A DNA stretch of 64,000 nt, from the NCBI GenBank assembly GCA_963082975.1, contig OY720345.1, forward strand, positions 79,267,034-79,331,033, written 5' to 3'. How positions within the stretch are numbered: the first letter of the stretch is position 1; every line of letters starts with the position of its first letter. This stretch comes from Labia minor (taxonomy: Eukaryota > Arthropoda > Insecta > Dermaptera > Spongiphoridae). The notes below the pieces were generated by a model. It was not told the DNA's origin. It did no database searches and was given only the letters and a program-made list of their open reading frames with translations. This document shows positions 1,887 to 55,130 of this stretch, piece by piece. The translations under genes were made by a program, and so were the position numbers.

Positions 1887-2114
1887 ATGGATCTTTATTC
1901 ACAAGAAGACATAAAATATCCAATATATATAGGTAATTTTTAAATTTATCTAAATTATTGTTAATTTTCACTAGTATTATATTTTTAAATATATTTCTAA
2001 TGATATTCATTATATAGATTTTTAAAATAGTTAGAAAATAATTTAATATAATCAAAATAAAATTGTTTTAGGTCCTTTATATCCTTGCGAATATTGCTAC
2101 TCAAATTATATAAA
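1887..2114 (+). pseudogene. Zinc-finger family copy 1, truncated
   Basis: Exon 1 is 1887-1932 and encodes MDLYSQEDIKYPIYI. It ends in G followed by a GT donor. The intron is 1933-2071 (139 bases) and exon 2 begins at 2072 with the family start PLYPCEYCYSNYI. After about 42 bases exon 2 stops abruptly at an A where a Helitron 3' end begins. Intact copies continue at this point with TGAGGAA, so the insertion is at A^T. The remainder of exon 2 is not found next to another element end in this window, so the copy is dead. Confidence 0.8.
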
Positions 2115-2461
2115 CCAGCTGTGAAGAGCGCCGAAGGCGCTCTGACCAGCTGGACGGGGGCTCCGCCCCCTGTACCCCCGAGTGGTACATCGTATTTGGT
2201 TATTGCATTTGGTAATTGCAATTGCCGAATCTCTTATAATATTTAAGACGTCTGCTTAGCCTAACTTTTCAATTTTTTTGTTTAATTGCATTTCGAGTGA
2301 TTTTTTCCCAATTTGTGTAATCACATACTCACAACATGCAACATATAATGGGCCGTGGGAAAAACATGGGGATTGCAAATGAGTGTCTGGCCCTGAGCTT
2401 TGTTGTTAGTATGTTTGTTTCCTTAGAACCTTTACCTCCACAAAACATACCCACATTGCAC
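2115..2461 (-). mobile_element. Helitron 3' part with helicase C-terminal remnant
   Basis: Read on the minus strand, 2332-2401 translates to pieces of the Rep-helicase C-terminus: KAQGQTL, then in another frame CFSHGPLYVACC, matching the helicase motif usually written NKAQGQTL...CFSHGQLYVACSR. Three hairpins follow at 2171-2189, 2156-2170 and 2115-2153. The last ends CAGCTGG and is followed by T in the host exon. Hairpin, CTRR terminus and A^T target are the classic Helitron 3' signature. The helicase is a decayed fragment containing a frame change, and the 5' part is missing. Confidence 0.75.
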
Positions 2462-2900
2462 TTTTATAATATATACCGGGACCCTGAGCCTTGGCTTGGT
2501 ACTTAAGTTAAAAAAATGATTCATTATTTTTGGATTTGGCTGGTAATATTAATACCTGGGACACCGAGCTCTCGCTCTACCCTTTAAAAAATATTGATAT
2601 ACAATTCTTTAATTATTTATTACAATTATTAAATGTTACACATTTGCATCAATATGATTAAAATGAATGAACTTGTGCTCCTCAATAATACATAAATATA
2701 TAATATATAGGTACATATATTTTTTTTCTATAGTGTCTTTTTGAAAAACTGTTTAGCGCCCCAAGTGGTTATAAAACAAACAATTTTAGCTAGTATAATA
2801 AGATTAATCCAAGTAATATCGTCTATTTCTATTCGACACTATTTTCACTCCTTATGGTAGCGGCCCAGTCGATGATGTTATATGGATCGTTAATTAACCA
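2462..2900 (-). mobile_element. Helitron family HelA fragment, inverted
   Basis: The reverse complement of the 3' part of the element at 22680-24276. It starts with the terminal hairpin (GTACC...GGCTC...GGTCCC, here slightly degenerate), then ACACCGAGCTCTCGCTC. It continues through the block next to GCGCCCCAAGTGGTTATAAA and ends in the AATCTTATTATACTAGC border region. A short block around 2850-2888 is also found at 52819-52857. There is no coding capacity. Confidence 0.7.
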
Positions 2901-3333
2901 TTAACCATTCACCGAATCGCCATTCAAATAATAACATACAAACAGAAAAGTAGGCGTGTTGATATAAAATATATACCTGTGACACTGAACTATCACTCGA
3001 CCCTTTAACCAATTTATTTATACAATTTATTTTTATATACTTTAAAAATTTTACAATTTTTTAATTTAATCAATAAATTAATTATATATTATTATTATTA
3101 TTTGTGTCCCTTCATACAAAATGTAAATTCTCTTTTTTGATATGTTTTCCTAACATAAACAAATATACATATTCTTTGAATGAAAATAAAAATAGATATT
3201 TATTTAAATGAAATAAAATTTTATGAATAATTGATCTCATAATTGGATTTTCATTTTCAATTAACGATTTGAATTCATAAAATATTAAAAAAAAACTTTT
3301 AAAACTTTTTAAATTATTTTCAAGTAAGTAATA
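2901..3333 (-). repeat. Inverted copy of HelB-like repeat sequence
   Basis: The reverse complement resembles parts of 32450-33360 and 52200-52740, including the ACACCGAACTATCACTCGACCC-like hairpin region and ATGAAAATCCAATTATGAGA. It is AT-rich and non-coding, and it is cut on the right by the mariner at 3334. A stretch containing TGTATGAAGGGACACA recurs just beyond the mariner's other end, so the mariner landed between two related repeats. Confidence 0.55.
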
Positions 3334-3496
3334 GGTTGTCAAATATCTCCCATCCGCTTATTTGCTCTTTATTCAATGCTTTATCAATAAATAATCATTT
3401 TTTTGAACATTATTTTGTGTTATTATTCATTTTTTTTAATTTTTAAAAAAGGCCCCTAAAGTAAAATTTGTCCAAAAAATGTTACGGTGATCGGAT

Positions 3497-7781: not shown

Positions 7782-8033
7782 TGTGGGTGTGTGAAGTGGC
7801 AGTGAGGTCGGAGACGGTTTGATATTAATATTAATTTATTGAACTAAAAATAGATACAGTAGAAACAGGGGAGGACTCGTATAGGAGATGGTGAAAGTTG
7901 TGTGTTCGCTCGCGACGGTGGTCGGGTCGTGACTGCCTCTCCATCTGGCCCTTCAGGGCCACTTGTTTTCCGGTGGAGGGAAACTTTCTCTTTGCTGGGT
8001 GCCTTTGTGTTAGCGAGCATCCGGGTCGCCACA
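7782..8033 (-). repeat. CsRn1-like element, left (3') LTR
   Basis: 252 bases starting TG and ending CA, preceded by the target TATC. Appears identical to the copy at 12301-12552. Confidence 0.92.
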
Positions 8034-8062
8034 CCACCCCCCTAATCTCTCGAAGAGCGGGA

Positions 8063-11000
8063 TTATGTGGCGTAATCCCGAAGCCTAATCGGTGTACGCG
8101 GAATTCGTCCGGATCGCGTCGCCGCTCTAGTAGCTTGAGGAGGACTCGCCCTGCTGGTCGTCGACGTTGCAATCGGTGTGGGAGTTGACCCCCCGCTCGA
8201 CGTCGGTGTGCACGGTGTGGGGGTCGACCCCCCGCTCGACGTCGGCGTGCACGGTGTAGGGGTCGACCCCCCGCTCGACGTCGGCGTGCCCGGTGTAGTG
8301 ATCTCCGTCGGTGTACATGGAATTCGCCCGGATCGAGTCGCAGTTCCGGTAACCCGTGGGAGAATCGCTCTGTCGGTTGTCGCCGCTGCAATCGGAGCGG
8401 GGGTCGCCCCACCGTTCGTCGTCGGCGTGCACGGTGTAGTGTTCTCCATCGACGGGTTAGGTATAATGCCCGTCCCATCGGGGCTCGGAAAAGACGCTCC
8501 GGCCGGCTCGTCGATGTCGGCGAGGAGGAATGCCGGTTTCACCCTATCCATCGAAACCGTGACGTTCGTTCCGCCTATGAGGATTGTGACGGTCTTCTCT
8601 TTCCTCTCCGTTACCTGGTAGGGGCCTGTGTATGGGTGCTGTAGTGCCCCTTTCACCCCGTCCCGACGGAGGAAGACGTGGGACGAATCCTTTAATGCCG
8701 GGTGCACGAAGGGGCGTTCCCTCGTGTGTCGCGCGGTTGCTACGGGCCGGAGTTTTGACATGTAGCTGCGCAACTGTTTGACTAAGCCGTCGGGCTCCGG
8801 GCTGGCGTCTTGCGGGGCGAAGAATTCTCCAGGGAGATGTAGCGGCTCACCGTAGACCAGTTCCGCTGTGGATGCGCCGATGTCGGGCTTAAATGATGCG
8901 CGAATACCCAGTAGCACCAAGGGCAGGCAGTCGGTCCACGTCGTGTCTGCCGAGCACATTATGGCGGCCTTGAGGTTCCTGTGGAAACGTTCGACCAGAC
9001 CGTTGGCGGCCGGATGGTACGCCGTCGTCGGCGCGTGTCGGAACCCGCAGAGGTTGGCCAGAGCCCGGAATAGGTGGGACTCGAACTGTCGGCCTTGGTC
9101 TGTCGTGATGCGCTCGGGGCAACCGAATCTTGCGATCCACCCGGAAAGCAGAGCTCTGGCTACGGTCTCGGCGGAGATGTCGGCGACGGGAAAGGCTTCC
9201 GGCCACCTTGAGAAACGGTCGACGGCCGTCACACAGTAACGGGAGCCGTTTGACGTCGGCAACGGTCCAATGATGTCTACATGTACGTGTCGGAACCTCG
9301 CTGATGGCGGTGTATAGTTGCCAATTGGTGTCACTGTGTGGCGGGTGACTTTTGATCTTTGACACGCTAGGCAGGTGCGGGCCCATTCGCGGCAGTCTTT
9401 TCTCACTCCTGGCCACACGAAGCGTTGGGAAACGAGCTTCGCTGAGGCCGCTGAGCCGGGATGATTGAGCTGGTGGAGAGCGTTGAAGACCTGTCGTCGT
9501 AGTTTGGCCGGTACGAAGGGCCGCGGGCAACCCGTTGAGGTGTCGCAAATGAGGGTAACGTCGGAGCCGGGTGCAGTAGTCTCTATGAGTCGGAGGGCAG
9601 AGCCGCGCATTTGCAGGCCGGTGAGTTGTTCGTCGTTCGATTGTAGGCGGGCGAGCTCCTTGAGATCCACGGGGGCGACGATGGCGTCCACCCGGGAAAG
9701 TGTGTCGGCGACTACGTTGTCGCGGCCCGAGATGTACTGAATGTCCGTTGTAAATTGCCCGATGAAGTTGAGGTGGTTGAATTGGCGGGGTGCACATTGC
9801 TCCCGTTTGAGGGCGAAAGCAAATGATAGCGGCTTATGGTCGGTGTACACCGTGAAATTCCGGCCCTCGATCATGTGGCGGAAATGTCTGATCGCCTCAT
9901 AGATGGCCAGCAGTTCGCGATCATAAGCGCTGTATTTGATCTGGGCAGAGCTCAGTTTCTTCGAAAAGAAAGCTAATGGTTGCCAGGATCCGTCGATGTG
10001 CTGCTGGAGGGCGGCACCCATGGAGGTTGCCGAGGCGTCGGTCATCAGCGCGAGTCGGGCTGCCGCGTTTGGGTGTGCCAGTAAAGTCGCCTCTCCCAGG
10101 TGTTCCTTTAGGTTCTCGAAGGCGTGTGCCAGTTCCTCGTTCCACTCTATGGGCTGGCTTCCTTTGACGTTCGTGCCGGCGAGCAATGCATGAAGGGGCG
10201 CCTGCGTTTCGGCGGCGCGTGGCAGGAAACGCCTGTAGAAATTCACCATTCCGAGGAACCGTCGCAGTTGTCTGATGTTGCTTGGTGGCTGGCACTGCTG
10301 CAGGTCGGCGATTCGGTCCGGCAGCGGACAGGATCCCTCTGCGGAAATGCGGTACCCCAGGAAGGTGACTTCTCGGGCGGCGAAGACGCATTTGGAGGGA
10401 TTTATGAGGATCCCGTAGTCGGTGAGTCGCCTGAAGAGCTTACGGAGATGCTCTTCGTGTTCCGTCGCTGAAGTCGAGGCCACCAAGATGTCATCGATGT
10501 AGGCAAACGCGAACGGGAGGTCGCGCAGTGCTTCGTCAATAAATCGTTGGAACGTCTGCGCCGCGTTCCTGAGACCGAAGGACATGAATGGGAATTCGAA
10601 CATTCCGAAAGGCGTTGTTATCGCCGTTTTCGGGATGTCCTTGGGGTTGACGGGGATCTGGTTGTACGCCTTCACCAGGTCGATGGTCGAGAAGATGTTG
10701 CATCCTGCGAGCTGGTGGGCGTAATCGAGGATGTGCTTGACGGGGTAGCTGTCCGGGATGGTGCGGGCGTTGAGAGCTCTATAGTCTCCCGTTGGTCTCC
10801 AACCGTCTTTCTTGGGAGCGAGGTGGAGGGCCGAAGACCAGGGGCTCTCGGATGGCCTCGCGGTCCCGTCCTGGAGCATCGCGTCGAATTCTTTTTTGGC
10901 GATCCTGAGTCGATCGGGAGCTAGCCTCCGGGGTCTGCAGGCGACTGGCGGGCCTTCGGTTGTCCTGATGTGGTGCCGCGTGTTGTGCTTCACCCGTCGA

Positions 11001-11554
11001 GGGAAACCCATCGGACGCGTCAGCTCGGGGAACTCGAGGAGGGCCGGGTGCGTGTTAGATGCGCTCGTCACCTTAACGCTGGCGATCTCACCCTTGTGCC
11101 TTGACCCGGGGCACGACGTCGAGGTGGACGGGTCGAGGAGACGCTGACGCTGGCAGTCGACGAGCAAGTCGTGGAAAGCCAGGAAATCGACGCCGATGAT
11201 GGGTGTGTCGACGTCCGCGATGATGAATCGCCATGGGAGATGACGACCCAGGCCCAAGTCGAGTTTGAAGCTGGCCCAACCATATGTGGAGATGGTCGTG
11301 CCGTTGGCGGCGGTGAGGTCGTAGTCGATGCGGCCTCGGCGCTCTGGCATGCGCTTCCTCGGAAACACGCAGACGTCTGATCCTGTGTCAACGAGGAAGC
11401 GGTGTCGCGAGGTCCGGTCGAAGACGAAAAGACGGCTCGGCTGATTGGGGCGACTAGTCTCCGCCACTACTAGTTGCCTGGGGCGTTTCCCGACATGGTG
11501 CAGGGTGGTCTGCACCTTCTCGCCCGGGCTCCATATTGGCGATGGTACCAGCAA
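8063..11554 (-). CDS. CsRn1-like pol polyprotein frame
   Basis: One frame of 1163 residues. It contains an aspartic protease motif ([12 protein letters not shown]), reverse transcriptase with [11 protein letters not shown] and the CsRn1-style [10 protein letters not shown], and RNase H with [11 protein letters not shown]. The integrase has a zinc-binding H-C region, then [20 protein letters not shown] and [11 protein letters not shown]. The C-terminal tail has repeats rich in Thr, Pro and Gly ([12 protein letters not shown]). Codon use is GC-rich, unlike the host-type genes in this window. The first Met lies inside the gag/pol overlap and may not be the true start. Confidence 0.88.
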
Positions 11555-12268
11555 ATATCGTCGTCGGCTGGCTTGTTCCGGTGGCGTCTTGGTGTGGGGC
11601 TCGGTGCCCTCGCCGAATGCGCTCTTTTTCCCATCAGATCGGCGACCGCGTTCTCGATGGCGCTGGCGAGTGCGAGTGTGATGGGCCGGGAGATGGCTGC
11701 GACATCGGATGGGGCGTTGGAAGCGTCTCCGACGGGCACCGGGTTCGCGGTAGTGTTGGTGGCGTTCCGAGATGTGCTGTGAACCGCTGGGCGAGGTGGC
11801 AGCGTTTCATGTATCCTGTCGGCGAGGCGGGCCACCTCATCCAGGGGGGGCTTCCTTCCAGATCGCCGTCTGGACCTGTATCGCCGTGGGAAGGCGCTTT
11901 GTCCACACGTGTCTGAGCATCTCTTCAGAGGCTCCCGTATCGAGTCGTCGGAGATGACGTAGGAGTGTGGACGGTTTACGGTCCCCGATATCCTCGGCGG
12001 CGAAGAATCGATCGAATTTGTTCGCTTCCGGGGTGGCAAATCTCTCGATCAGCGCCTCCTTAAGCCGCCCATATGGATGTTCAGTCGGTGGCTTGAGGAT
12101 GATATCCTCGACTTCTTCCACGAAAGCGTCCTCGAGGCCGGCTACGACGATCCCAAACTTTGCCTTCTCGCACACCACTTTATGGCCCTCGAAAAGGGCT
12201 TCGAGACGAGCGAAGTAGATCAGCGGTTTCTCCGGGTTGAACCGCGGCATCGTGGAGTTGTTCATCAT
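11470..12268 (-). other. CsRn1-like gag region
   Basis: The gag part of the same element, upstream of and overlapping pol. Recognisable are the capsid-like segment near RFNPEKPLIYFARLEALFEG and a nucleocapsid-type cluster [18 protein letters not shown], a Cys/His arrangement usual in arthropod CsRn1 elements. It is carried in more than one frame. Confidence 0.75.
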
Positions 12269-12300
12269 AGTTTCGTTTATTTCTGCGTCGGGGTCACCAG

Positions 12301-12552
12301 TGTGGGTGTGTGAAGTGGCAGTGAGGTCGGAGACGGTTTGATATTAATATTAATTTATTGAACTAAAAATAGATACAGTAGAAACAGGGGAGGACTCGTA
12401 TAGGAGATGGTGAAAGTTGTGTGTTCGCTCGCGACGGTGGTCGGGTCGTGACTGCCTCTCCATCTGGCCCTTCAGGGCCACTTGTTTTCCGGTGGAGGGA
12501 AACTTTCTCTTTGCTGGGTGCCTTTGTGTTAGCGAGCATCCGGGTCGCCACA
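12301..12552 (-). repeat. CsRn1-like element, right (5') LTR
   Basis: 252 bases, TG...CA, followed by the target duplication TATC. Appears identical to the left LTR. Confidence 0.92.
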
Positions 12553-18362: not shown

Positions 18363-19953
18363 ATGGATCCTTATTCACAGAAAGACATAAAATATCCAAT
18401 ATATATAGGTAATTTTTATATTCATCTAAATTATTGTTAATTTTCACTAGTATTATATTTTTAAATATATTTCTAATAATATTAATTATATAGATATTGT
18501 GTATTAAGTTGTTGAATAAGTACACTGGTATAAAATAGCTATTAGTTTATTAATATTGCAATATTACATTCGTATATAATTTTAACAATTTATATTTAAA
18601 TCTGACTGTATAGTCAAGCTTTATTATTTTTTTCCGTGTACGAAAGTGTCACTGCTTACTTGATATGGTGTTACTTGATGTTGCATGTGAATATAATATT
18701 ATCAATGTTAATGTAAATGTTTATTATTATGACTGGAAATATATAACAATAGATTTTTAAAATAGTTAGTTAATGATTTAACATAATGAAATAAAATTGT
18801 TTTAGGTCCTTTATATCCTTGTGTATATTGCTACACACATTTTATAAATGAGGAATATTTATCTAAACATTTAAAAAGATGTATTTTCAAACAAATATTT
18901 TCAATTTTAAAAAATAAATTAAAACTCGAAAATGATACAGTTGAATATTCCAAGGAAAACAGTCATGACGAAAAACTTGAAAATACTGATTCAAACAATA
19001 TAGAAGCCAGACGTTTTGAATGTAATTATTGTGAAAAGAAATTTAATCGGAAATCTACTTTAAATACACATTTATTAATTCATACAAGTGAAAAGCCTTT
19101 TGAATGTAATCATTGCAAAAAGAAATTTAATCAGAAATCTCATTTAAATACACATTTATTAATTCATACAGGAGAAAAGCCTTTTGAATGTAATTATTGT
19201 AAAAAGAAATTTGATCAGAAATGTGATTTAAAGGGACATTTATTAATTCATACAGGCGAAAGGCCTTTTGAGTGTAATTATTATAAAAATAAATTTAATC
19301 AGAAATATATTTTAGATAGGCATTTATTAATTCATACAGGTGAAAAGCCTTTTGAATGTAATTATTGTAAAAAGAAATTTAATACGAAATCTAATTTAAA
19401 TTATCATTTATTAATTCATACAGGAGAAAAGCCCTTTGAATGTAATTATTGTAAAAAAAAATTTAATACGAAATCACATTTAAAAGTACATTTATTAATT
19501 CATACAGGTGAAAAGCCTTTTGAATGTAATTATTGTAAAAAGAAATTTAATCAGAAATCTCTTTTAGATAGACATTTATTAATTCATACAGGAGAAAAGC
19601 CTTTTGAATGTAATTATTGTAAAAAGAAATTTAATAGGAAATCACATTTAGACAGACATTTATTAATTCATACAGGTGAAAAGCCTTTTGAATGTAATTA
19701 TTGTAAAAAGAAATTTAATCATAAGTTTAGTTTAGATAGACATTTATTAATTCATACAGGTGAAAAGCGTTTTGAATGTAATTATTGTAAAAATAAATTT
19801 ATACAAAAAAGAGATTTTAATAATCATTTATTAAATCATACAGGTGAAAAGCCTTTTGAATGTAATTATTGTAAAAAGAAATTTAATCATAAAATTAGTT
19901 TAGATAAACATTTATTAATTCATACAGGAGAAAAGTCTTTTGAATGTAATTAA
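18363..19953 (+). CDS. C2H2 zinc-finger protein, two exons (copy 2, 397 aa)
   Basis: Exons 18363-18408 and 18806-19953. Exon 1 encodes MDPYSQKDIKYPIYI plus one base of a Gly codon. The intron has a GT donor and a TTTTAG acceptor and holds a solo LTR. Exon 2 opens with a C2HC finger (PLYPCVYCYTHFINEE, then H and C) and a charged linker ending in NIEARR. Eleven 28-residue fingers with HTGEKPFECN linkers follow; finger 4 has lost its second Cys (FECNYYKNKF). The frame ends at FECN-stop through an in-frame 6-base deletion. It is probably a nuclear DNA-binding protein. Exon 2 contains no ATG, so only splicing from exon 1 makes sense of it. The coding total (1194 bases) divides by three. Confidence 0.85.
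18496..18748 (-). mobile_element. Solo LTR of a gypsy element in the zinc-finger intron
   Basis: Matches the LTR of the element at 26215-29508 and lies at exactly the same intron position, with the same flanking ATAGAT on each side. The internal part is absent, which is the normal product of recombination between two LTRs. Confidence 0.85.
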
Positions 19954-22948: not shown

Positions 22949-23003
22949 TAGTCCAGCGGTTGGACTGATGTTTTAACGAGTGGATTTCGTCGGTTCGAAA
23001 CTC
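22949..23003 (+). other. tRNA-like A and B boxes inside HelA
   Basis: TAGTCCAGCGG fits the pol III A box and GGTTCGAAACTC fits the B box, 32 bases apart. GTCC/GGAC can form a D-stem, but no full cloverleaf with a matching acceptor or T stem was found. A second copy is at 51620-51674. Likely a tRNA-derived scrap carried by the Helitron; not a functional tRNA gene. Confidence 0.45.
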
Positions 23004-23551
23004 GCCGGGTGAATCGTTATTTAAAAATGAAAATAATGATTTTGTTATTTTTTTTTCTTTTTATCTATTGTTTACTTTTTAATAAATTACTATTCTATAT
23101 TTATTTATTCATTGTTCTTTTATTAATAAAGTTTTAGATAGTTTTATAAGTTTTAATATTTTTTCAATAAAATATTATTCAATATATTTATTAATATTAT
23201 TTTATTTATTATTATTGAGTACCCGAAGTTCCATTCATTTTAATCAGATTGATGCAATGATGCAACAGTTAATAATTGTAATATTGTAATAAATTTCTAT
23301 CTTGAAAATTGTTACATATTATTCAGGATATTTTAAAAACTATTTCTTTCTTTAATTAATATTCATTTTTTCTATAAGTCAGATATATTTCCAAATATTA
23401 AATAATTTTTGAAGTGAAAACTTCTTTAGCGGCGTTGAGCACTTTTGCGGGATGGGGAAAAAGTATAGAACTCGCGTGATCGTGACCAACACCATGAAAC
23501 CATCTGCTTTCAAATTTCTTATAACAGAGCGCGAAATTTGAATTGTCATTA

Positions 23552-36458: not shown

Positions 36459-36683
<225 letters not shown>

Positions 36684-36710
36684 CTAAACATTTTGGGATG
36701 AGGATTTAAG

Positions 36711-37000: not shown

Positions 37001-37097
37001 AAATCTAATATGGGTATGTATAATTTTATATGCGGCCCGCGAAGTTATGATGCATTTCCAAAGTGGTCCGCAAGATCATTTGGGTTGGCCACCTCTG

Positions 37098-38833: not shown

Positions 38834-40346
38834 TTAAATTTCTTTTACATTACATTCAAAAGACTTTTCTCCTGTATGAATTAATAAATGTTTATCTAAA
38901 CTAATTTTATGATTAAATTTCTTTTTACAATAATTACATTCAAAAGGCTTTTCACCTGTATGAATTAATAAATGATTATTAAAATCTCTTTTTTGTATAA
39001 ATTTCTTTTTACAATAATTACATTCAAAAGGCGTTTCACCTGTATGAATTAATATATGTACTTTTAAATATGATTTCTTATTAAATTTTTTTTTACAATA
39101 ATTACATTCAAAAGGCTTTTCACCTGTATGAATTAATAAATGACTATTTAATTCAGATTTCAGATTAAATTTCTTTTTACAATAATTACATTCAAAAGGC
39201 GTTTCACCTGTATGAATTAATATATGTCCTTGTAAATAAAATTTCCTATTAAATTTCTTTTTACAATAATTACATTCAAAAGGCTTTTCATCTGTATGAA
39301 TTAATAAATGTGTATTTAAAGCAGATTTCGTATTAAATTTCTTTTCACAATAATTACATTCAAAAGGCTTTTCACTTGTATGAATTAATAAATGTGTATT
39401 TAAATTAGATTTCCAATAAAATTTCTTTTTACAATAATTACATTCAAAAGGCTTTTCTCCTGTATGAATTAGTAAATGATTATTTAAATCAGATTTCAGA
39501 TTATATTTCTTTTTACAATAATTACATTCAAAAGGCTTTTCCCCTGTATGAATTAATAAATGTCTATCTAAACTAAATTTCTGATTAAATTTCTTTTTAC
39601 AATAATTACATTCAAAAGGCTTTTCGCCAGTATGAATTAATAAATGTTTTTTTAATACCGATTTGAAATTAAATTTCTTTTTACAATAATTACATTCAAA
39701 AGGCTTTTCACCTGTATGAATTAATAAATGTCTATTTAAATGTGATTTGGTATTAAATTTCTTTTTACAATAATTACATTCAAAAGGCTTTTTCCCTGTA
39801 TGAATTAATAAATGTCTATTTAAATGTGATTTCGTATTAAATTTCATTTTACAATAATTACATTCAAAAGGCTTTTCACCTGTATGAATTAATAAATGTC
39901 TCTTTAAATCACATTTATGATTAAATTTCTTATTACAATAATTACATTCAAAACGTCTGTCTTCTGTATTGTTTGAATCAGTATCTTCAAGGTTTTCGTC
40001 ATGACTGTTTTCCTTGGAATACTTAACTGTTTCATTTTCAAATTTTAATTTATTTTTTAAAATTGAAAATATTTGTTTAAAAATACATCTTTTTAAATGT
40101 TTAGATAAAAATTCCTCATTTATATAATTTGAGTAGCAATATTCGCAAGGATATAAAGGACCTAAAACAAGTTTATTTTAATTATGTTAAATCATTTTCT
40201 AATTATTTTAAAAATCTATATAATGAATATCAATAGAAATATATTTAAAAATATAATACTAGTGAAAATTAACCATAATTTCGATGAATATAAAACTTAC
40301 CTATATATATTGGATATTTTATGTCTTCCTGTGAATAAGGATCCAT
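38834..40346 (-). CDS. C2H2 zinc-finger protein, two exons (copy 4, 457 aa)
   Basis: Exon 1 is 40301-40346 (MDPYSQEDIKYPIYI plus one base). The donor is GTAAGT, the best in the family. The intron is 139 bases (40162-40300) with no insertion. Exon 2 is 38834-40161: C2HC finger (PLYPCEYCYSNYINEE...), linker NNTEDRR, then thirteen intact C2H2 units and a final partial FECNVKEI. Total 1374 bases, in frame. This is the cleanest member: no lost zinc ligand, a strong donor and a small intron. It probably binds DNA in the nucleus; the target is unknown. The frame ends at the same decayed finger as copies 2 and 3, but by a different small deletion. The gene is divergent from copy 5 across 1.45 kb. Confidence 0.9.
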
Positions 40347-41029
40347 TTTTAATTGTATAATCTATTATATATAAGGTAATAAGTATTATAAAAGTATTAA
40401 AAGTTTAATTTAATTTAATTTAATAGATAGTCTGCGAGTTTGATTTTTTTATTGACATTCAAAATAATAACCAATATGTCTTCTTTAAGATAGCAACGAT
40501 TCAGTTCATTCAAAAACATTATGCGCCTTATTTAAAAATTAGTTTTAATATTTATTTAAAATCTTTTTATTATTTTTAACTGATATTTTAATAAATGGCT
40601 GCTCTTTTTAAGTATTAAATGAAAAAATACATTTTTAAAAATGTGTAGATTATTTCAGATTAACGCATGACCCGGTGTCTGGAATATATGTGCTAAATTA
40701 TAAACATTATTTTATTTTAGAATAAATATACACAACACAATGCTTGTAAGTTGTAATATTTTAGCTCATTTAATTTTTCCCTTCTTTTAAATATATATAG
40801 ATCAAAATTTAAATTAAGGTTTTATTTCTTAACAAAATCGTCTCAAAATTAAATATATATTCAGTAAGTTTTTATTTAATTATTTTAAAGCAAAATACTT
40901 TGCTCGTCTCTTTTCTAAATTTATTTGAAATAAATTTCTTCTTTAATCTATACATTTTAATAATTTATTGATGCTCTTTAAAAAAAAAATTATATAAATG
41001 GTTTATGTATTTTAAAAACTAGTTATACA
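40347..41029 (-). promoter_or_regulatory. Upstream region of zinc-finger copy 4
   Basis: The first roughly 270 bases upstream (to about 40615, starting AGAGCAGCCATTTATTAAAA on the minus strand) are shared with copy 5 and pseudogene copy 7. They include GTTGCTATCTTAAAGAAGA and the proximal block. The shared border at AGAGCAGCC suggests this is the extent of the duplicated 5' region. The rest is AT-rich with nothing recognised. Confidence 0.4.
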
Positions 41030-41240
41030 ATATCTATCTATTTTTCTGGCTATACGGAACTTGAAAGTTCTTGTCTGCAGCAAACACACTGCTCCAAGTA
41101 TCCCTATTCTGAGCCACAACCCTCCAATCCCTACATTATCCACCCACCGGTTCGTTGGTCTTCCAAGCGGACGTTTCACATTCGGTCTCCCTACCAATAT
41201 ATTTTTCGCATTCTTTCCTCTCCTATTCTAGCCACGATAT
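41030..41240 (-). mobile_element. LINE C-terminal fragment, copy 4
   Basis: The minus strand reads GRPNVKRPLGRPTNRWVDNV and, in the next frame, DWRVVAQNRDTW. P-G-RP--RW followed by W---AQ-R--W is the C-terminal signature of many non-LTR reverse transcriptases. It contains a frame change and is a scrap. Confidence 0.6.
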
Positions 41241-41526
41241 AATGGAGCAAGAGACAGAACAGTCAGTACAGAGTAAAAAAATTGTAATTGTAAAATTATA
41301 TACTAAATATTCAATCAGTATATTAGATAAAACATTTATTTGTTTTTGTGTTCTTAATTTACTACAGGAATTGAATGGCAAAGAATTGACAAACGGAGAA
41401 GAGTGGGGAAATAAATGGGAGAGGCCTGGTTCCACCTAAGTAAAAAGAATAAAAAAAAATAAAAAGGAAATATTTTTATTAACATATATAACAATTTTTA
41501 CTAGCATAAGAAGATAAGATAAGATA
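41241..41526 (-). repeat. Non-coding with Helitron 5' terminus
   Basis: The right edge on the minus strand reads TCTTATCTTATCTTATCTTC then TTATGCTAG, like the HelA 5' ends, adjacent to the shared zinc-finger upstream border. A 94-residue frame across 41155-41439 resembles nothing and is probably chance. Confidence 0.4.
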
Positions 41527-41799
41527 AGAGCAGCCATTTATTAAAATATCACATAAAAATAATAAAAAGATTTTAAATAAATATTAAAACTAATTTTTAA
41601 ATAAGGCATTTAATGTTTTTGAATGAACTGAATCGTTGCTATCTTAAAGAAGATATTGGATTATTATCTGTTATTATTTTGAATGTCAATAAAAATCAAA
41701 CTCACAGACTATCTCTTAAATTAAATTATATTAAACTTTTAATACTTTTATAATACTTATTTTCTTATATATAATTTGTAATAGATTATACAATTAAAA

Positions 41800-42757
41800 A
41801 TGCATCCTTATTCACAACAAGACATAAAATATCCAATATATATAGGTAATTTTTATATTCATCTAAATTATTGTTTACTTCCCCTAGTATTATATTTTTA
41901 AATATATTTCTAATGATATTCATTATATATATTTTTAAAATAATTAGAAAATGATTTAACATAATGAAAATAAAATTGTTTTAGGTCCTTTATATCCTTG
42001 CGAATATTGCTACACAAATTATATTAATGAGGAATTTTTATCTAAACATTTAAAAACATGTATTTTCAAACAAATATTTTCAATTTTAAAAAATAAATTA
42101 AAACTCGAAAATGATACAGTTGAATATTCCAAGGAAAACAGTCATGACGAAAACCTTGAAGATACTGATTCGAACAATACAGAAAACAGACGTTTCGAAT
42201 GTAATTATTGTAAAAAGAAATTTAATACGAAATCTAATTTAAATAGACATTTATTAATTCATACAGGTGAAAAGCCCTTTGAATGTAATTATTGTAAAAA
42301 GACATTTATACAAAAAACACATTTTAATAATCATTTATTAATTCATACAGGTGAAAAGCCTTTTGAATGTAATTATTGTAAAAAGAAATTTAATAGGAAA
42401 TCATATTTAAATACACATTTATTAATTCATACAAGTGTAAAGCCTTTCGAATGTAATTATTGTGAAAAGAAATTTAATATGAAATCTGTATTAAATAGAC
42501 ATTTATTAATTCATACAAGAGAAAAGCTTTTTGAATGTAATTATTGTAAAAAGAAATTTAATACAAAAGCACATTTAAAAGGACATTTATTAATTCATAC
42601 AGATGAAAAACCTTTTGAATGTAATTATTGTGAAAAGACATTTAATAGGAAATCTGTATTAAATAATCATTTATTAATTCATACAAGAGAAAAGCCGTTT
42701 GAATGTAATTATTGTAAAAAGAAATTTAAAAGGACATTTATTAATTCATACAGGTGA
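41800..42757 (+). pseudogene. C2H2 zinc-finger gene copy 5, frame-broken (272 aa)
   Basis: Exon 1 is 41800-41845 (MHPYSQQDIKYPIYI) and the intron is 139 bases. Exon 2 runs from 41985 in frame through the C2HC finger, linker and six fingers. In the seventh finger about 17 bases are missing near 42725 (between repeated AAATTTA/CATTTAAAAG), so the product ends KRTFINSYR at 42757. Linkers are less regular (HTREKL, HTREKP, HTSVKP) than in the other copies. A shortened six-finger protein could still be made, so expression is possible. The remaining fingers lie in another frame downstream. Confidence 0.75.
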
Positions 42758-43010
42758 AAAGCCTTTTCAATGTAATTATTGTAAAAAGAAATTTATTAGA
42801 AAATCTGATTTAGATAAACATTTATTAATTCATACAGGCGAAAAGCCTTTTGAATGTAATTATTGTAAAAAGAAATTTAATCAGAAATCTGCTTTAAATA
42901 CACATTTATTAATTCATACAAGAGAAACGCCTTTTGAATGTAATTATTGTAAAAAGAAATTTAATACAAAAGCACATTTAAATATACATTTATTAATTCA
43001 TATTGTATAA
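42758..43010 (+). pseudogene. Out-of-frame remaining fingers of copy 5
   Basis: Half a finger and three complete ones (FQCNYCKKKFIRKSDLDKH, QKSALNTH, TKAHLNIH) ending LLIHIV-stop. They continue copy 5 in a shifted frame. Confidence 0.7.
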
Positions 43011-44163: not shown

Positions 44164-45690
44164 TTAATGTGATACTTGAGCTTGTTTCAAGGAACACAAG
44201 TATTTTATATTGGGCTCGATATTTGATAGTGCAACTCGAAGTTCTTGATCGAGATTTTTTAAGCAAGACCGCTTATCATTTTTAATTAAAAGAAGTGTCG
44301 AAAAGCTTTGTTCGCATGAATATGTCGTTGAAAAGGGGATTAAAATTGAAATAGCCTGTTTTGAAATTTGAGGATATTCATTCTTAGCCGAAATCCAGAA
44401 AACATCCAATGGAACTTCTCCAAAAGTAAGTTTTAACGTCCCGTCGTTACTCAGTTCAATAAACTCTTCTTTAAATTTAAGAGAAAATGCATCAACAGAT
44501 TTTTTTGCATTAGTTGCAAAAGGATTGCGAATCCAATCATATTCTTCACTTTTAATCGAATGAAAATAGTAGTCGAATTTATTTTCCAGTGTTGTTAAAT
44601 GGGATTGGGCCAGATCGATAATTAATTGCCTATTTTCAATTATTGTATTATGAACCCTTTGAAACATTTCTAAAGAGTTGTTACTTAGTTCATTCTGCCA
44701 AAGTTCCAGTTTATTTTTGAACCCTTGCAATTTGTCGGAACAGGTTAATAAGTTTTCATTCGGACCTTGCATTTTTCTATTAAGTTCATTAAGATGGTCG
44801 AAAATGTCAGCCATATATGCAAGTTTGGCGATCCAACTGTTATCTTCGAAGTGCTGGCCGAGTTCGGGCATATTTTGACTTAGTAAAAACTGATGCACTT
44901 CACAGCGAAGTTCAAACAATCTAGTCAACACTTTTCCTCGGGATAACCAACGTACTTCAGTATAAAATAATAAAGATTTATGTTCTGAACCCATTTCTTC
45001 ACAAAGCATTTCGAAAATTCTTGTATTTAAAGCTCTTAATTTAATAAAATTTATAATTTTGATGCATTCATTCATAGTTTTTAAAAGTTGTTCTGGTAAA
45101 TTCTTCACCATCAATACTTCCCGATGTATGCAGCAATGTGTAAATTGTATTGCCGGATTTTGTTGTTTTACAAAGGCAACAAAACCCTTTATGTTACCAG
45201 TCATTGCTGCGGCGCCATCAGTACAAATACTCATGCAGTTACTCCATTGTAGATTATGTATTTTGAAGAAATCATCAGTTACTCGAAAAATATCCTCTCC
45301 AGTAGTTCGTTCGGCAAGTTTTTTACAAAATAAAAAATTTTCTTTTATGCAATCTTCGCCAACAAAACGTACAATTGCAATTAATTGTGCTTGATTTTTA
45401 ATATCCGTTGACTCGTCAATTTGAAGAGCAAAATTGTTAGCTGCGATCAATTTCAAAATAAGCGTGTTCAAAATATCTGTTGACATGTCGCCAATATGTC
45501 TTTTAATAGTTTCAGCTGACAGTGAAACCTTACTCACTTCCTGAACCTCTTTAGGTCCAAGCATATCTCGCACAATTTCCATTCATGCTGGTTTAATAAG
45601 TTTTTCTCCAATAGTATGAGGTTTCTTTTCACGAGCTATTAATCTTGCAATGTAATAGCTAGCTTCTAATGCTTTATCGGAAACAGATAC
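44164..45690 (-). pseudogene. hAT-2 transposase, main part
   Basis: The catalytic and hATC part of a hAT transposase related to ZBED5-like proteins. Motifs: LQIDESTDIKNQ, SICTDGAAAMTGN, CCIHREVLM, EVRWLSRGKVLTRLFELR and, near the C-terminus, ILIPFSTTYSCEQSFSTL. From the insertion point the frame reads VSVSDKALEASYYIARLI... and meets an in-frame TGA at 45583-45585, just before MEIVRDMLG; the following 472 codons are open. It is clearly related to but distinct from hAT-1. It is inactive because of the BEL insertion and the stop. Confidence 0.88.
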
Positions 45691-46061
45691 TGTTAAGATG
45701 ATGTGTGTATGCTTGACGAATTATTTGAAGAAAGCTGTTGTGATCTGTAATAATGTAATCTGGAGAAATAATGTGAAATGAATAAATGTTTATAAATCAA
45801 ATGCTTGCAAATAATATAATATTTATTGATGTGTTTTAATGAAACATAAACATTTAATGTGTTATGATACAGGTTCAAAGAAATCCGATGATGTGGACTG
45901 ATGTCCTGCAAAGATGTGATTCAGTGTATGTTCAAAACACGAATGCATGAACATGGCGTCTCGCTGAAGTGGCGTACATCTCTCTGGCGGCGTCGAAGAT
46001 GGTGCATTTCAGGGCTTGTAGCACCCCCTATATTAATTCTTCGAAGCTTGGTGCTTCTCCA
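45691..46061 (-). repeat. BEL/Pao element, left (3') LTR
   Basis: 371 bases, preceded by the target GATAC. Appears identical to 49441-49811. Confidence 0.9.
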
Positions 46062-49000
46062 TCCCGCCGGCCTTGAAGTATCTTCAACGAAACCCCTCTT
46101 AGTGGACTGTATCTTCTTGGTTGATCGGTAAAGGGCACAGCTTCATCACCGATCGTCTGATGATGTTTCCATTTGGCATGGATACATCAACAACTCTGAC
46201 AATCTTGTCCTTGCCAGGATATAATTTTGCAATTCTTCCAAGTGACCATTTCAGCGGAGGTAAATTGTCTTCTTTCAAAAGAACCAGAGCTCCAAGTTTG
46301 ACATTTGCAGATTGATTCGTCCATTTCTGACGAACCTGCAGTTCTGAAATGTACTCAGCAGCCCATCTCCTCCAGAATGACTGAAACAGCTTGGTGATAT
46401 ATGCATATCTTTTCAAACGATTGTCTTTGATTTCGACAAAGTTTGATTCTGGAATATTTGTTGCTGGTTTTCCAATTAAAAAATGTGCAGGGGTTAATGG
46501 ATTATGATCTGATGGATCTGATGATAAAGGTGTAAGTGGACGAGAATTTAGAATGGATTCTATCACAGTTAGCACAGTGGTATATTCTTCAAAATTCAAT
46601 TTGGATTCGCCTAGAATTCTATTTAAATGATGTTTTGTTCTTTTTATCATGCTTTCCCAGCAGCCTCCAAAGTGTGGGCTTTTAGCTGGAATAAAATGCC
46701 ATTGTATATTTTCTCTCATTAGAGCTTCATATATTTGGCTGTTATTAAGAATTTTGAAAAGTTCCTTTAATTTATGATTAGCCCCCACAAAATTTGTACC
46801 ATTGTCTGAATATATGGCTAATGGTCTGCCTCTGCGGGCAATAAAGCGCTTCAATGAATTTAAGAACATATCCGCCGATAGATCTGATACCAATTCTAAG
46901 TGCACTGCTCGGGTTGATAAACATGTAAAAAGGCAAATGTACGCCTTGACTATTCGAGGCCGTCTACTGTTACCTTCCTTCAAAAGTACGGGACCTGCAT
47001 AATCAACCCCTACATTGTGAAAAAGCATATACTGTTCTACCCGTGCAGTTGGTAAATTCCCCATTTGATAATTAATTGATTTTGGTTTGGCTCGAAAACA
47101 TTTAATGCAGTTATGAATTATTTCCCTAGCCAGATTTCTGCCCCCAATAGGCCAATACTTTTGTCTAATGGAATATAACAATTGTTGAGGTCCACAATGC
47201 AATAGTCGTTTATGCTCCTGTGACATTAATAATCGAGTGAATTTATGTTTATTTGATAATAAAATTTGATGTTTTTGATTTTGTGGAAATTTTGAATTTC
47301 TTCTACCTCCCAAACCTTTTTAAATCAAATTCAAGATCGGTTAATCTTAATAAATTCACTTTGGAGCTGTTGTTAAGTGAATTACCAATATTGCCTGCTA
47401 CGATCCAACCGAATTTACTTTTTTGTAATTTGTAAAATTTGCCCTGCGCACAACGAATCATAAAATATGTCTGCACCAATTAACATATCAATATCCTCGC
47501 TTTCATTAAATGTTTCATCTGCAAGTTCAATATCATCTGGAATATTCAAATGATTGATATCAAACGAATTAGTTGGTAATTTATCAGTAATATGGTCCAT
47601 AACAAGAAACTGTAAATTTCGCTTATACTGTGATTTCAACGAGCATATCTCTAAATTTGTTTTATGTTTAATTTTATGTTGAATATTACCTATTCCTGTA
47701 ATTGTATATTCTATTTTGAATTTTTTTGATTTTAATTTATCGCACAATTTTTTTGTAATTAAATTGCTTTGCGATCCATTGTCTAAAAGCGCTCTACATA
47801 TGTGATAATTGCCATGAATGTCCTTTACCTTTACTTTAATTGTGGATAATAAAGTTGTATTTGATTGTATATCGGAACATATTCCTACCAAACCGTGGGT
47901 CGTGCTATTTGAATCGCTATTATTCTCATTTTCTTTGATTTCTATGTCATCTGTTGGCTGCATTTTTGATTGTATTTCAACGGGGTCTAAATGAAGTAAT
48001 GTATTATGGGATTTGTTACACTTAGTGCATTTTGAAGATTTACATGACGAGGCGTAATGGGAGGGTTTGAGACAATTTAAACATAATTTTAAATTCCGAA
48101 TGTTGTTAATTCTTTCCCTGGTGTTTAATTTTAAAATTTTTGAACATTTGTATATTGCGTGTGGCTCTTTACATAAGGCACACGATTTTGCAGTTGATAT
48201 ATGAGTATATCCTTTGTTTAATTTTGGTGATATTGGCCTAGTGGGTTTCGAATCTCCAACTCGTATTAAAATAGCAGATTTTTCCCTAATAAATTTTAAT
48301 AATGTTTCGAAAGAAATATTATCGTCCCTGGTTGTCTGTATTTCCCAATCCCTTCTGGTTTTACTATCAAATTTTGATGAAATTAAATAAACTAATAATG
48401 TATCCCAGGAATCAGTTGGTTCACCTAATGCTTTTAATGCTCTTAAATTTTTGTTTATATCATCATGTAACATCTGTAGATGGCTCCCCGATTCTCTTTG
48501 TAGTGAGGGCAGTTCAAATATAGATTTTACATGATTGTGAATTAATAATTTTTTATTTTCGAATCTTTCATTAAGAAGATCCCATGCTATTTTATAATTT
48601 TGAGCCGTGACCTTCATTGATTCCAAAATTTCTAAAGCCCGCCCCTTTAGAGTTGATTTCAAATAATATAATTTTTGAACCTCAGATAATTGATCATTTT
48701 GATCAATTAGAGCTGAGAATGCATCTTTGAATTCGAGCCAATTGTTAAAATTCCCATCGAAGTTAGGTAGGTCTATGGTAGGTAATTGTATGAATTGATT
48801 TTTAGAGGACGATGATGCTAAGCTAATTACATCAGCGTCTGGCCTAACGACAGACGCTCTCTCAAATTCATGAACCGCTTTTTTAATTTTGGATTTTAAT
48901 GCAAAATAACGATTTTCAAAAGTAGATCGTTCCTCAATTTCTATTTCGAAAGATTCCTCGTTATCAATACATTTCAGTTCAATTTGATCCTGAATTGTAT

Positions 49001-49440
49001 TGAATTTTTCGAATTTTGATTCAAAATTTTCTAAACGATCTACTGATTGAATAATTGATTCTTGGTCGAAAGTTTGTATGGACTCAACATAATTTTTGAA
49101 TTTAGTCAATTGTGCTTTTATTAATTTTCTTGAATTTTTTAAATGCTGCAATTCCATATTGAATAAAGGCTACACCAATTATGCAACTATAATGAATTAT
49201 ATGAATTAATGAAAGGAATGAAAAGGACTTACCGCACAAATTAATTCCAGCAACAAATATTAATTGTTTGTTAAATAAGGTTGCTCAATTTCTCCAGATA
49301 CAAATACTGTTTTCGGATTTCTCGGCTTGTTTTTTGCTTCTCAAATATGATTCGTCTCAATATGTTGAATTACTTGCTGTATCTAGCTCGATGAACTAAA
49401 TATTGAATATACTGGATGAATCCGGCTCAATTGGACCAAA

Positions 49441-49811
49441 TGTTAAGATGATGTGTGTATGCTTGACGAATTATTTGAAGAAAGCTGTTGTGATCTGTAA
49501 TAATGTAATCTGGAGAAATAATGTGAAATGAATAAATGTTTATAAATCAAATGCTTGCAAATAATATAATATTTATTGATGTGTTTTAATGAAACATAAA
49601 CATTTAATGTGTTATGATACAGGTTCAAAGAAATCCGATGATGTGGACTGATGTCCTGCAAAGATGTGATTCAGTGTATGTTCAAAACACGAATGCATGA
49701 ACATGGCGTCTCGCTGAAGTGGCGTACATCTCTCTGGCGGCGTCGAAGATGGTGCATTTCAGGGCTTGTAGCACCCCCTATATTAATTCTTCGAAGCTTG
49801 GTGCTTCTCCA
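49441..49811 (-). repeat. BEL/Pao element, right (5') LTR
   Basis: 371 bases, followed by the target copy GATAC. Confidence 0.9.
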
Positions 49812-50146
49812 GATACGGTCGACATCATAAATTTTTTTTGTTTTAAATTTTGAGCCAAAAACCTTTGAAAATATGATATATCCTTTTTAGCACAATTCGG
49901 ATGTTTTGAAGTTAGATGGCGATTTAGTTTACTGGGCACCATTGAGTCGTTTGTTAATTGTTCGTTGCAAATTACACATAATGGTTTCGGAGCCGCTTCA
50001 TCGCCGCACCAATAAAAGCCATAACGAATGTAGTCTTCGAAGTATTTTCTATTCACAATCTTTCTTTTCTTAGCAATACTGCTTGTGCAAGGTTCATCAT
50101 CTTCTGCCCGAGAAGTAGATTGTTTTCCAAATAAAAATTTATCCAT
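49812..50146 (-). pseudogene. hAT-2 transposase, BED-finger N-terminal part
   Basis: Begins MDKFLFGKQSTSRAEDDEPC, with a basic stretch KKRKIVNRKY, then a BED finger (CVICNEQLTNDSMVPSKLNR, H, H) in the order seen in hAT-1. It is cut at the BEL target site after MMSTV. An ATG 42 bases upstream is also in frame, but MDKFLFG matches the start position of hAT-1 (MDRWLQTG), so it is preferred. Confidence 0.85.
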
Positions 50147-50276
50147 ATTGAAATGGGCACAAAAATAAATCACGTTAATAACAAACACGAATGGTTAATT
50201 TATAAACTTCTGCGATTTAATTTATAGGGGTGTATGTGTCCAGTAGAAATTCGTATCTAACACTGACAATATAATA

Positions 50277-52156: not shown

Positions 52157-52159
52157 TGA

Positions 52160-53676
52160 TCTTAATATATTGTGAGAATTAGATAAATAATGTAGAGAGA
52201 AAAAAATATTTAAAAATAGATATTTATTTAAATGAAATAAAATTATTTAATTTACAGAATGAAAATGTCTATAATAATGTCTAAACATTTTTTCTTTATA
52301 ATTTTACATTATAATAATACTAATTACAGTAGTTATAATATATGGGGAATTTTCAACTTTGACTGCCGATTTGACCATGTTCCCAAACGAATTTTAAAAA
52401 AACCAAGACCACTCTACATTTATTTACACATTTTAAGCTCTAATCGAATCCAAAATCAAAATTTAAAAAATCGAAAAACAAACTCACAGATATATAGATT
52501 TTATAAATGAACATTTATACAATTTATTTTAATTAATTTGAAACATTTTAGGAAACAAATTTTTAATGGGTCATTTTTAGAAATCCCATTTAACAATTAT
52601 AATAAATAATTAAAAAATTGTAAAATTTTTAAAGTATATAAAAATAAATTGTATAAATTGGTTAAAGGGTCGAGTGATAGTTCGGTGTCCCAGGTATATA
52701 TTTTATATTAACACGCCTACTTTTCTGTATAATAAAGATATAAAGAATCATATTTTAATTTTTATATAACCAAGAAATCATTTTTTCACTTAAAATATAG
52801 TTGTAAAGCCCAAATCTCCGATCCATATAACATCATCGACTGGGCCGCTACCAAAAGGAGTCTTCTCTTGCTCTGACTAGGGCCACCGGTATTTGCCATT
52901 AGTCTCGAAAAAATAATATTAAATTTTATATAAATTTATAAATTAGAATATTTGAATTTGTTTAAATTTTAACACATGTAATCAATCATATGCATAAAGA
53001 ATAGAAAATTTTGAAAATCAACTTGGTATTAAATTCAGAAAAAAAAAATACTCATATATAGAATATATAGACTATTCGAATATAATTGAAACTCTTTCTC
53101 TCCCTCTATTTTAAATTTGAAAAAACGGAGTGTTAAGAAATTAAGATTCCTTATACAACATGGATGGTTAAATGAATTGGGCTCCCTACCTCCCTGAGAA
53201 ATTCACATTAAAAATGTTTATAATATTTTAGTTTATTAAATCAAACTATTATTTTTTTATTTCAATATTTTTAATGTTAATACAATAATTTTTATTTTAT
53301 AATCTATAAAATAATTTAATTATTTTTAAAAACAACGGTCTTCAATTACAATTTTTTTACTCTCTACTGACTGTTCATTTCATAACTGAAAATAGTGTCG
53401 AATAGAAATAGACGATATTACTTGGATTAATCTTATTATGCTAGCTAAAATTGTTTGTTTGTATTATTGAGGACCCCAGTTCAATTCATTTTAATCAGAT
53501 TGATGCAATGATGCAACATTTAATAATTGTAATAAATAATTAATTGTAGATTAATATTTTTTAAAGGGTCGAGCGACAGCTCGGTGTCCCAGGTATTAAT
53601 ATTACCAGCCAAACCCAATAATAATGAATCATTTTTTTTAACTTAAGTACCGAGCCGAGGCTCGGGGTCCCGGTAC
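52160..53676 (+). mobile_element. Helitron HelB copy 2, uninterrupted
   Basis: Starts TCTTAATATATTGTGAGAAT after A, two or three bases beyond the preceding HelA copy, and ends GGTCCCGGTAC before T. It is 1517 bases long. It keeps the empty site (53065/53066) for the Helitron that sits in copy 1. It has a roughly 40-base block at 52819-52857 missing from copy 1 but present inverted at 2850-2888. The 83-residue frame at 52259 resembles nothing known. Confidence 0.75.
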
Positions 53677-53849
53677 TTTGCTTCATAATGATACCAGTTA
53701 GCGCCATGGTTCTTGCATTTTTGCGATTAATGTATTCACTCAAAAGATTATAAACAAAACATAGCATATCAAATTAAAATGATTATTATAATCGTTGATA
53801 ATGATTTGGATTTATGAAAATGATATGGATAGGGGTAATTGTAAATTAA

Positions 53850-54330
53850 TTGCAAAAATAAAAATAAATTAAAACTCAAAAATGATACTGTCGAATATTC
53901 CAAGGAAAACGGCCAAGACGAAAAAGGTTTGATTCAAACAAAACAGAAAACAGGCGTTTTGAATGTAATTATTGTAAAAAGAGATTTAAACATAGACATT
54001 TTACATTTATTAATTCATACAGGTGAAAAGGGCTTTGAATGTAATTATTGTAAAAATAAATTTAATAGGAAATCACATTTAAATATACATTTATTAATTC
54101 ATTAAGGGAAAAGCTTTTTGAATGTAATTATTGTAAAATGAAATTTATACAAAAAACACATTTTAATAATCATTTATTGATTGATACAGGAGAAAAGCCT
54201 TATGAATGTAATCATTGTAAAAAGAAATTTAATAGGAAATCTGTATTAAATAGACATTTATTAATTCATACTGTTTATCTTAATAATGAAGACAAAAGAT
54301 TTTCTTTGATTCTTGAATGCAGATTTTTAT
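53850..54330 (+). pseudogene. Zinc-finger family copy 6, fragment
   Basis: An exon 2 fragment starting in the charged linker (AATAAATTAAAACTCAAAAA), followed by about four finger units interrupted by small deletions and stops. A 64-codon frame at 54138-54332 keeps one and a half fingers (QKTHFNNH, RKSVLNRH). It has no exon 1 and is dead. Confidence 0.75.
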
Positions 54331-54567
54331 AAAATGTATTTTTTCATTTAATATGTACTTAGAAAGAGCAGCCATTTATTAAAATATCAAAAAAATAAAA
54401 AGATTTTAAAGAAATATTAAAACTAATTTTTAAATAAAGGGCATAATTTTTTTTTAATGAACTGAATCGTTTCTATCTTAAAGAAGATTTTGGTTATTAT
54501 TTTGAAACTTAATAAAAATCTAACTTATTACCTTATATATAATTTGTAATAGATTATACAATTAAAA

Positions 54568-55130
54568 ATGGATCTTTATTCACAAGAAGACATAAATTAT
54601 CCAATATATATAGGCAATTTTTATATTCATCGAAATTATTGTTTACTTCCCCTAGTATTATATTTTTAAATATATTTCTAATGATATTCATTATATAGAT
54701 TTTTAAAATAGATAATATTTTAACATAATGAACATAAAGAAAAATTTTTTTAGGTCCTCTATATCCTTGTGAATATTGCTACACAAATTATATAAATGAG
54801 AAATTTTTATCTAAACATTTAAAAGGATGTATTTTTAAACAAATAAATTCAATTTTAAAAAATAAATTAAAACTCGAAAATGATAGTCGAATATTCCAAG
54901 GAAAACAGTCATGACAAAAAACTTGAAGATACTGATTCAAACATTACAGAAGATACACGTTTTGAATGTAATTATTGTAAAAAAAAATTTAATACGAAAT
55001 CTAATTTAAAATTATTAATTTAATTTATTAATTCATACAGGAGAAAAACCTTTCGAATGTAATTATTGTGAAAAGAAATTTAATCACAATCTTTTTTAAA
55101 TAATCATTTAATAATTCATACAGGGCTTCA
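54568..55130 (+). pseudogene. Zinc-finger family copy 7, decayed
   Basis: Exon 1 is 54568-54613 (MDLYSQEDINYPIYI). The donor is GC instead of GT. Exon 2 starts at 54754 with PLYPCEYCYTNYINEKFLSK. A 2-base deletion in the linker (GATAGTCGAATATT) shifts the frame to a stop, and the few fingers after it are fragmentary. The sequence ends near 55130. The shared upstream region from AGAGCAGCC is present at about 54365. Confidence 0.8.

Follow-up and report, generated by a model that had tools for sequence, protein, structure and literature searches.

Zinc-finger defence families seem to have evolved several times in animals, with differing front ends. The FiNZ-ZNF (FZNF) genes of cyprinid fish were described as encoding, on one exon, a short N-terminal module that has no known relatives and, on the next, the finger array, as varying in their contact residues and as repressing young retroelements (PMC10547256). 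The ZF271-like/APEZ genes of the pea aphid and Oncopeltus form clusters with pseudogenes and array differences, and the account given of them mentions no domain beyond the array (PMC6444547). In flies, young ZAD-ZNF genes are described as sometimes essential, with heterochromatin roles (PMC7655104). In the present study, we analyzed a stretch of 64,000 nucleotides (the window) from the dermapteran insect Labia minor (assembly GCA_963082975.1, contig OY720345.1, positions 79,267,034 to 79,331,033 of the forward strand), which contains a cluster of copies of a two-exon C2H2 zinc-finger gene. We moderately favour reading this cluster as a young, lineage-specific tandem C2H2 family of FiNZ-ZNF-like build that probably binds repeats or transposons. 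Judged from the sequence, the copies of the family share one anatomy, have been duplicated and have decayed; finger units of 84 bases have been gained, lost and exchanged; and diversification has centred on the base-contacting residues. The gene type itself is already known; what is new here is the diversification at the contact positions and the array turnover between copies 2 and 3.

Helix positions -1, 2, 3 and 6 of C2H2 fingers contact DNA. A loose scaffold match (an FE start, 18 or more of the 28 consensus letters and no stop codon) gave 58 finger units, with more decayed units left out, and removal of four identical ones left 54 distinct units, some of them from dead copies and from finger blocks lying 3' of the genes. 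The zinc ligands and the scaffold were almost invariant across the 58 units selected in this way; since the filter selects for conservation of the scaffold, it lowers scaffold replacement diversity (pN), and silent sites should be little affected. The contact positions -1, 6, 3 and 2 occupied ranks 1 to 4 of 28 in pN, followed by helix position 5 as the fifth. Contact pN was 0.524 versus a scaffold silent diversity (pS) of 0.112, a ratio of 4.7 (95% bootstrap interval 3.8-5.8, 54 distinct units), and pN/pS was 1.49 at the contacts and 0.56 in the scaffold. Since exchange of whole units would homogenise the contact codons as much as the silent sites, we infer that selection on recognition is needed to explain the pattern. 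Together with rapid array turnover, this diversification, which the original prediction from the bare sequence did not mention, seems to be the stronger feature of the locus.

Copies 2 and 3 lie within head-to-tail segmental blocks beginning at 15748 and 21785. Over 1945 bases that comprise flanking DNA, exon 1 and the early part of the intron they differ by 8 mismatches and 8 gaps, and over the following stretch of intron and N-terminus by 9 mismatches in 494 columns. Fingers 1 and 2 and the last four fingers of the two arrays correspond, with 81 to 83 of 84 bases identical, whereas the middle fingers, five in copy 2 and seven in copy 3, have no clear one-to-one match (best cross-matches, 75 to 81 of 84); two middle pairs (80 and 81 of 84) could be related, and the others not clearly. 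In copy 3 a TSNK unit occurs three times without any difference, and the closest counterpart of this copy's unit 3 is finger 1 of copy 4 (82 of 84). In the corresponding fingers, 9 of 504 bases differ, a higher rate than in the adjoining flank (Fisher P 0.003). The differences between the two arrays are compatible with exchange between paralogues, with selection and with a degree of relaxation. It is also conceivable, although somewhat unlikely, that the assembler set two haplotypes in tandem as copies 2 and 3 and that there are fewer genes than counted. The 8 mismatches in the 1945-base flank and the close succession of the blocks would agree with such an arrangement; however, the second block has about 1.75 kb that the first lacks (22528-24276), the insert in its intron is larger, and copies 1, 4, 5, 6 and 7 would remain regardless. 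If the two copies are misplaced haplotypes, the turnover of the array would be even faster.

The gene model underlying these comparisons is highly likely on the evidence of the splice sites and reading frames. In a six-frame scan, the 46-base exon 1, which had been proposed as shared by the family, was indeed present six times in the window, starting at 1887, 18363, 26082, 41800 and 54568 on the plus strand and at 40346 on the minus strand. It encodes 15 residues (MDPYSQKDIKYPIYI plus the first base of Gly in copy 2), and in all six copies it joins exon 2 in frame across a phase-1 intron (...YPIYI-G-PLYPC), with GT-AG splice sites in five of the six and GC-AG in copy 6. The four junction pairs proposed earlier (18408/18806, 26127/29566, 40301/40161 and 41845/41985) were all exact, each joining in frame. 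The proposed length of 139 bases for the empty intron holds for copies 1, 4 and 5, and the intron of copy 6, with the GC donor, has 140 bases. The introns of copies 2 (397 bases) and 3 (3438 bases) carry a long terminal repeat (LTR)-type insertion with ATAG on either side, which is absent from copies 1, 4, 5 and 6. A spliced gene family is supported because the six joins are in frame, the splice sites are in place, and the intron tolerates an LTR insertion and indels; the part of that proposal which did not stand is that the C2HC finger belongs to a separate unrecognised module (see below). Exon 2 consists of the C2HC finger, a charged linker and an array of 84-base finger units. Since Met is absent from the open frames of exon 2 in copies 2 and 3, and the first exon-2 Met of copy 4 is residue 105, ATG-based gene finding misses the former two and truncates the latter, as had been pointed out, and ATG-based annotation can miss genes of this build in general. 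The family belongs to the tandem C2H2 (poly-ZNF) class, having at least five C2H2 fingers with TGEKP-type linkers: the open frames contain 11 fingers in copy 2, 13 in copies 3 and 4, and six in copy 5, and copy 3 matched Pfam zf-C2H2 over 13 stretches (E 2.1e-61).

The seven copies originally predicted are thus six with exon 1 and a seventh that is a finger and linker fragment without it, and the word complete fits only copies 2, 3 and 4, whose spliced frames alone run intact to a stop. Copy 2 has exon 1 at 18363-18408, an intron at 18409-18805 containing the LTR-type remnant, and exon 2 with 11 fingers and a stop at 18806-19953, all on the plus strand; downstream at 20234-21054 (plus strand) lies a finger block with a repeated 3' end and no N-terminus. 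On the same strand, copy 3 has exon 1 at 26082-26127, an intron at 26128-29565 and exon 2 with 13 fingers and a stop at 29566-30881, followed by an extra finger block without the N-terminus at 31170-31418. Each of these two copies contains one finger lacking a cysteine. Copy 4, on the minus strand, has exon 1 at 40301-40346, an empty 139-base intron at 40162-40300 and exon 2 with 13 fingers and a stop at 38834-40161. In copy 5 (plus strand; exon 1 at 41800-41845, empty 139-base intron at 41846-41984, exon 2 at 41985-43002), a frameshift within the seventh finger (frame stop at 42757) follows six fingers, and the fingers continue in another frame. The remaining three of the seven are dead, all on the plus strand. 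Copy 1 (1887-2118) is a remnant with exon 1 at 1887-1932, a 139-base intron at 1933-2071 and an exon 2 that runs into foreign sequence at about 2114. Copy 6 (54568-55125) consists of exon 1, the 140-base intron and an exon 2 with a frameshift within the linker; copy 7 (53860-54352) is the linker and finger fragment. Searching the window by tblastn with the N-terminus and a finger pair revealed no further copies beyond these seven and the two 3' blocks. The sequence breaking copy 1 (2115-2200) begins with GC-rich inverted repeats, unlike its surroundings.

Upstream of exon 1, 60 bases in copies 1, 2, 3 and 5 and 53 bases in copy 4 include a TATATATAA-type run and are conserved to the same degree as exon 1. 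In this proximal region the differences amount to 0-8% among copies 1 to 5 and 20-23% versus copy 6, and the 150-base flank mostly diverges more; this conserved sequence is likely to be the core promoter. Copies 4 and 5 are placed head to head, about 1.45 kb apart (40100-42060), with inverted homology extending about 260-275 bases upstream of each ATG, and the sequence between them is a possible shared regulatory spacer.

We examined the N-terminus of four members against Pfam with E up to 10, a setting at which HMMER filters drop most matches above about 0.1. Six families were matched, none at threshold, and neither KRAB nor ZAD (PF07776) was among them, so that the genes do not fall into the KRAB-ZNF or ZAD-ZNF families by this measure. 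The best matches below threshold were zf-C2H2 in three of the four members (best E 0.016) and zf-MYST in two (E 0.03-0.05); kinship with the MYST finger was rejected, the match being non-significant (13.7 bits versus a cut-off of 28.8, two of four members). PDB sequence matches had E values of 0.07 or worse and nearly all spanned a finger-sized stretch. The C2HC module shares the spacing and core residues of the classical C2H2 finger, with the final His replaced by Cys. Because a profile comparison aligns it with the finger unit that makes up the family's arrays (hhalign probability 77, E 2e-5, 20 columns), we take it as a variant of the classical finger, and therefore only exon 1 and the charged linker remain of the N-terminus that had been put forward as unrecognised. 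AlphaFold2 models of the N-terminus (mean predicted local distance difference test, pLDDT, 61 and 66) show a long helix running through and past the C2HC finger and, weak as they are, lack the beta hairpin of the classical fold. A Foldseek search with the low-confidence model returned no PDB match at E up to 10, which is not evidence of novelty. No matches were found in NCBIfam or Rfam, and ARAGORN found no tRNA. Among virus and prokaryote contigs, a search for relatives of the N-terminus and copy 4 gave 50, 40, 5 and 4 pattern matches, none of them confirmed by tblastn, a result that says nothing about animals. No description of this N-terminus was found among the papers listed in the literature searches, for which the sequence itself is not usable as a search term.

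The cluster lies in AT-rich DNA (GC 0.20-0.35 in 27 of 32 2-kb bins), and LTR and DNA transposons are present between the genes and, in one case, within an intron, which we counted in favour of a family directed at repeats. Ten frames were scanned: nine contained transposon domains (Mos1-type mariner, hAT, reverse transcriptase/integrase and DUF1759/DUF5641), one hAT match among them being below its cut-off, and the tenth had no Pfam match. The intron insert of copy 3 contains Ty3/gypsy-type pol pieces (reverse transcriptase and integrase) in separate minus-strand frames, flanked by LTR-like repeats of 125 bases with 97.6% identity, and only a remnant of the insertion, consistent with a solo LTR, is left in copy 2. 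Could the zinc-finger unit itself be carried by a mobile element, with the N-terminus as part of a transposon frame? The copies occur in both orientations with transposons between them, which would favour such carriage. However, their BLAST edges differ from copy to copy, copies 2 and 3 belong to the segmental blocks described above, and exon 1 and the N-terminal portion of exon 2 lie outside all ten transposon-like frames scanned, although no separate search for terminal repeats was made. Because the edges are not shared, the unit is probably not a transposon, and we regard its carriage by one as very improbable.

Two LTR elements in the window have identical LTRs and flanking repeats of TATC and GATAC, respectively. 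The Ty3/gypsy element at 7782-12552 (minus strand) has 252-base LTRs that are 100% identical, TATC on either side and 60% GC inside, and most other 2-kb bins of the window have 20-35% GC; it is a very recent insertion of unusual composition. The BEL-type element within 44164-50194 (minus strand; identical 371-base LTRs at 45691-46061 and 49441-49811, flanked by GATAC) has a hAT frame on one side and, on the other, a frame at 49778-50194 that has no Pfam match but by eye resembles the front of a hAT protein; the element was apparently inserted into one hAT gene. The names BEL, hAT and Ty3/gypsy are probable assignments, based in part on the Pfam domains of the scanned frames. Short tandem arrays at 62392-62466 and 63452-63550 consist of units that look related and run in opposite directions (AAAAATCCCTAAATA and TTTTCTTTTTAGGGAT).

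In the mechanism that we propose, exon 1 would supply 15 residues, and exon 2 the variant C2HC finger, after which come a stretch that is probably helical and the charged linker. DNA binding by the array is very likely, and the arrays, in which 11-13 fingers (six for copy 5) are joined by TGEKP linkers, would be expected to cover about 33-39 bp of DNA. They may recognise shifting targets in the genome, of which transposons or repeats of other kinds are the most likely, while the N-terminal finger and helix may serve protein contacts, either dimerisation or recruitment of a silencing partner, by analogy with KRAB and ZAD. Control of repeats or transposons would be the likeliest role, suggested by analogy and by the contact diversification, and we consider the chances of it evenly balanced. 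At least some copies are probably functional. A possible but rather doubtful extension is that the 15-residue exon 1, the C2HC finger and the helix form a new effector module of a single animal lineage, which would be a counterpart of KRAB, ZAD and FiNZ of independent origin and would recruit silencing to the transposons that the fast-changing array selects. Alternatively, the genes may be a regulatory family not concerned with transposons (insulator, architectural or developmental) that expanded in tandem, the contact changes reflecting new gene targets. Their general anatomy is that of insect multi-finger factors, and young ZAD-ZNF genes of flies were reported to be capable of essentiality (PMC7655104); however, array turnover in near-identical neighbours and frequent gene death would be unusual for conserved regulators, and we consider this explanation unlikely.

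Several observations weigh against a young family directed at repeats. In the Oncopeltus paper, repeat content is described as uncorrelated with the ZF271 expansion within Hemiptera (PMC6444547). The copy 2 and 3 blocks may be older than their near flank suggests, because they differ more farther upstream (21 mismatches in 743 bases) and their best 3' stretches are only 92-94% alike. Of the nine changes in the corresponding fingers, eight replace an amino acid; only two of these fall on the four contact positions, with one on helix position 5 and one on a zinc cysteine, which also fits relaxed constraint. The N-terminal models are of low confidence. With copies 2 versus 3 excluded, substitutions per site were 0.07-0.11 in the intron, compared with 0.02-0.09 in exon 1, 0.05-0.08 in early exon 2 and 0.06-0.08 in the linker; therefore, the exons change only slightly less than the intron. 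The ratio of replacement to silent substitution rates (dN/dS) of the N-terminus was 0.25-0.8 (codons 1-83), reaching about 1.0 when dead copy 6 was included (codons 1-56), and the excess of silent changes had P = 0.04 for copy 4 versus 5 and 0.40 for copy 2 versus copies 4 and 5 averaged. Because of these rates and ratios, protein-level constraint on the N-terminal module is weakly supported.

These points raise the alternative of a cluster that is for the most part in decay, derived from a former gene in which the 84-base array grows and shrinks as a minisatellite would, without function. The dead copies (three of seven), the frameshift of copy 5, the fingers without a cysteine in copies 2 and 3, the weak N-terminal constraint and the eight replacements to one silent change would all be accommodated by decay. 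However, neutral shuffling of whole units would not focus variation on four contact codons, and three arrays of 11-13 fingers are open end to end; mere decay is thus improbable, and we retain the reading of a young family with diversifying recognition. The copy 2 and 3 pair, with array turnover beside 8 substitutions in a 1.9-kb flank, would be a natural system for change of DNA-binding specificity, and a non-vertebrate case with a recent duplicate pair would help to test transposon conflict as a driver of such families.

Among known systems, the MYST C2HC finger (KAT7, MOZ) resembles the N-terminal finger in its C-x2-C-x12-H-x3-C spacing and in a local LYxCExC resemblance (PDB E 0.07-0.3), whereas copy 3 has no acetyltransferase domain among the best 25 of 27 Pfam families matched. 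The KRAB-ZNF genes of tetrapods, as outlined in PMC10547256 and PMC6444547, share the exon layout, the clusters and the diversification of contact residues, but the N-terminus here has no KRAB match in Pfam. With the ZAD-ZNF genes of insects, the family has in common multi-finger proteins, an N-terminal module, a variable linker and partly tandem clusters, as portrayed in PMC7655104; it differs in having one C2HC finger in place of a Pfam ZAD match. The ZF271-like/APEZ genes are likewise invertebrate tandem C2H2 genes with recent clusters, pseudogenes and array differences, and are set apart, by description, by consisting of the array only in contrast to the constant N-terminal module found here (PMC6444547). 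The FiNZ-ZNF genes, compared by their described anatomy, are the closest: in the account of PMC10547256, the FiNZ module has 28 amino acids and is glutamate-rich, whereas exon 1 here encodes 15 residues with the C2HC finger and linker in exon 2, but both families have a short N-terminal module lacking a known domain on its own first exon, the array on exon 2, a transposon-rich cluster and variable contacts.

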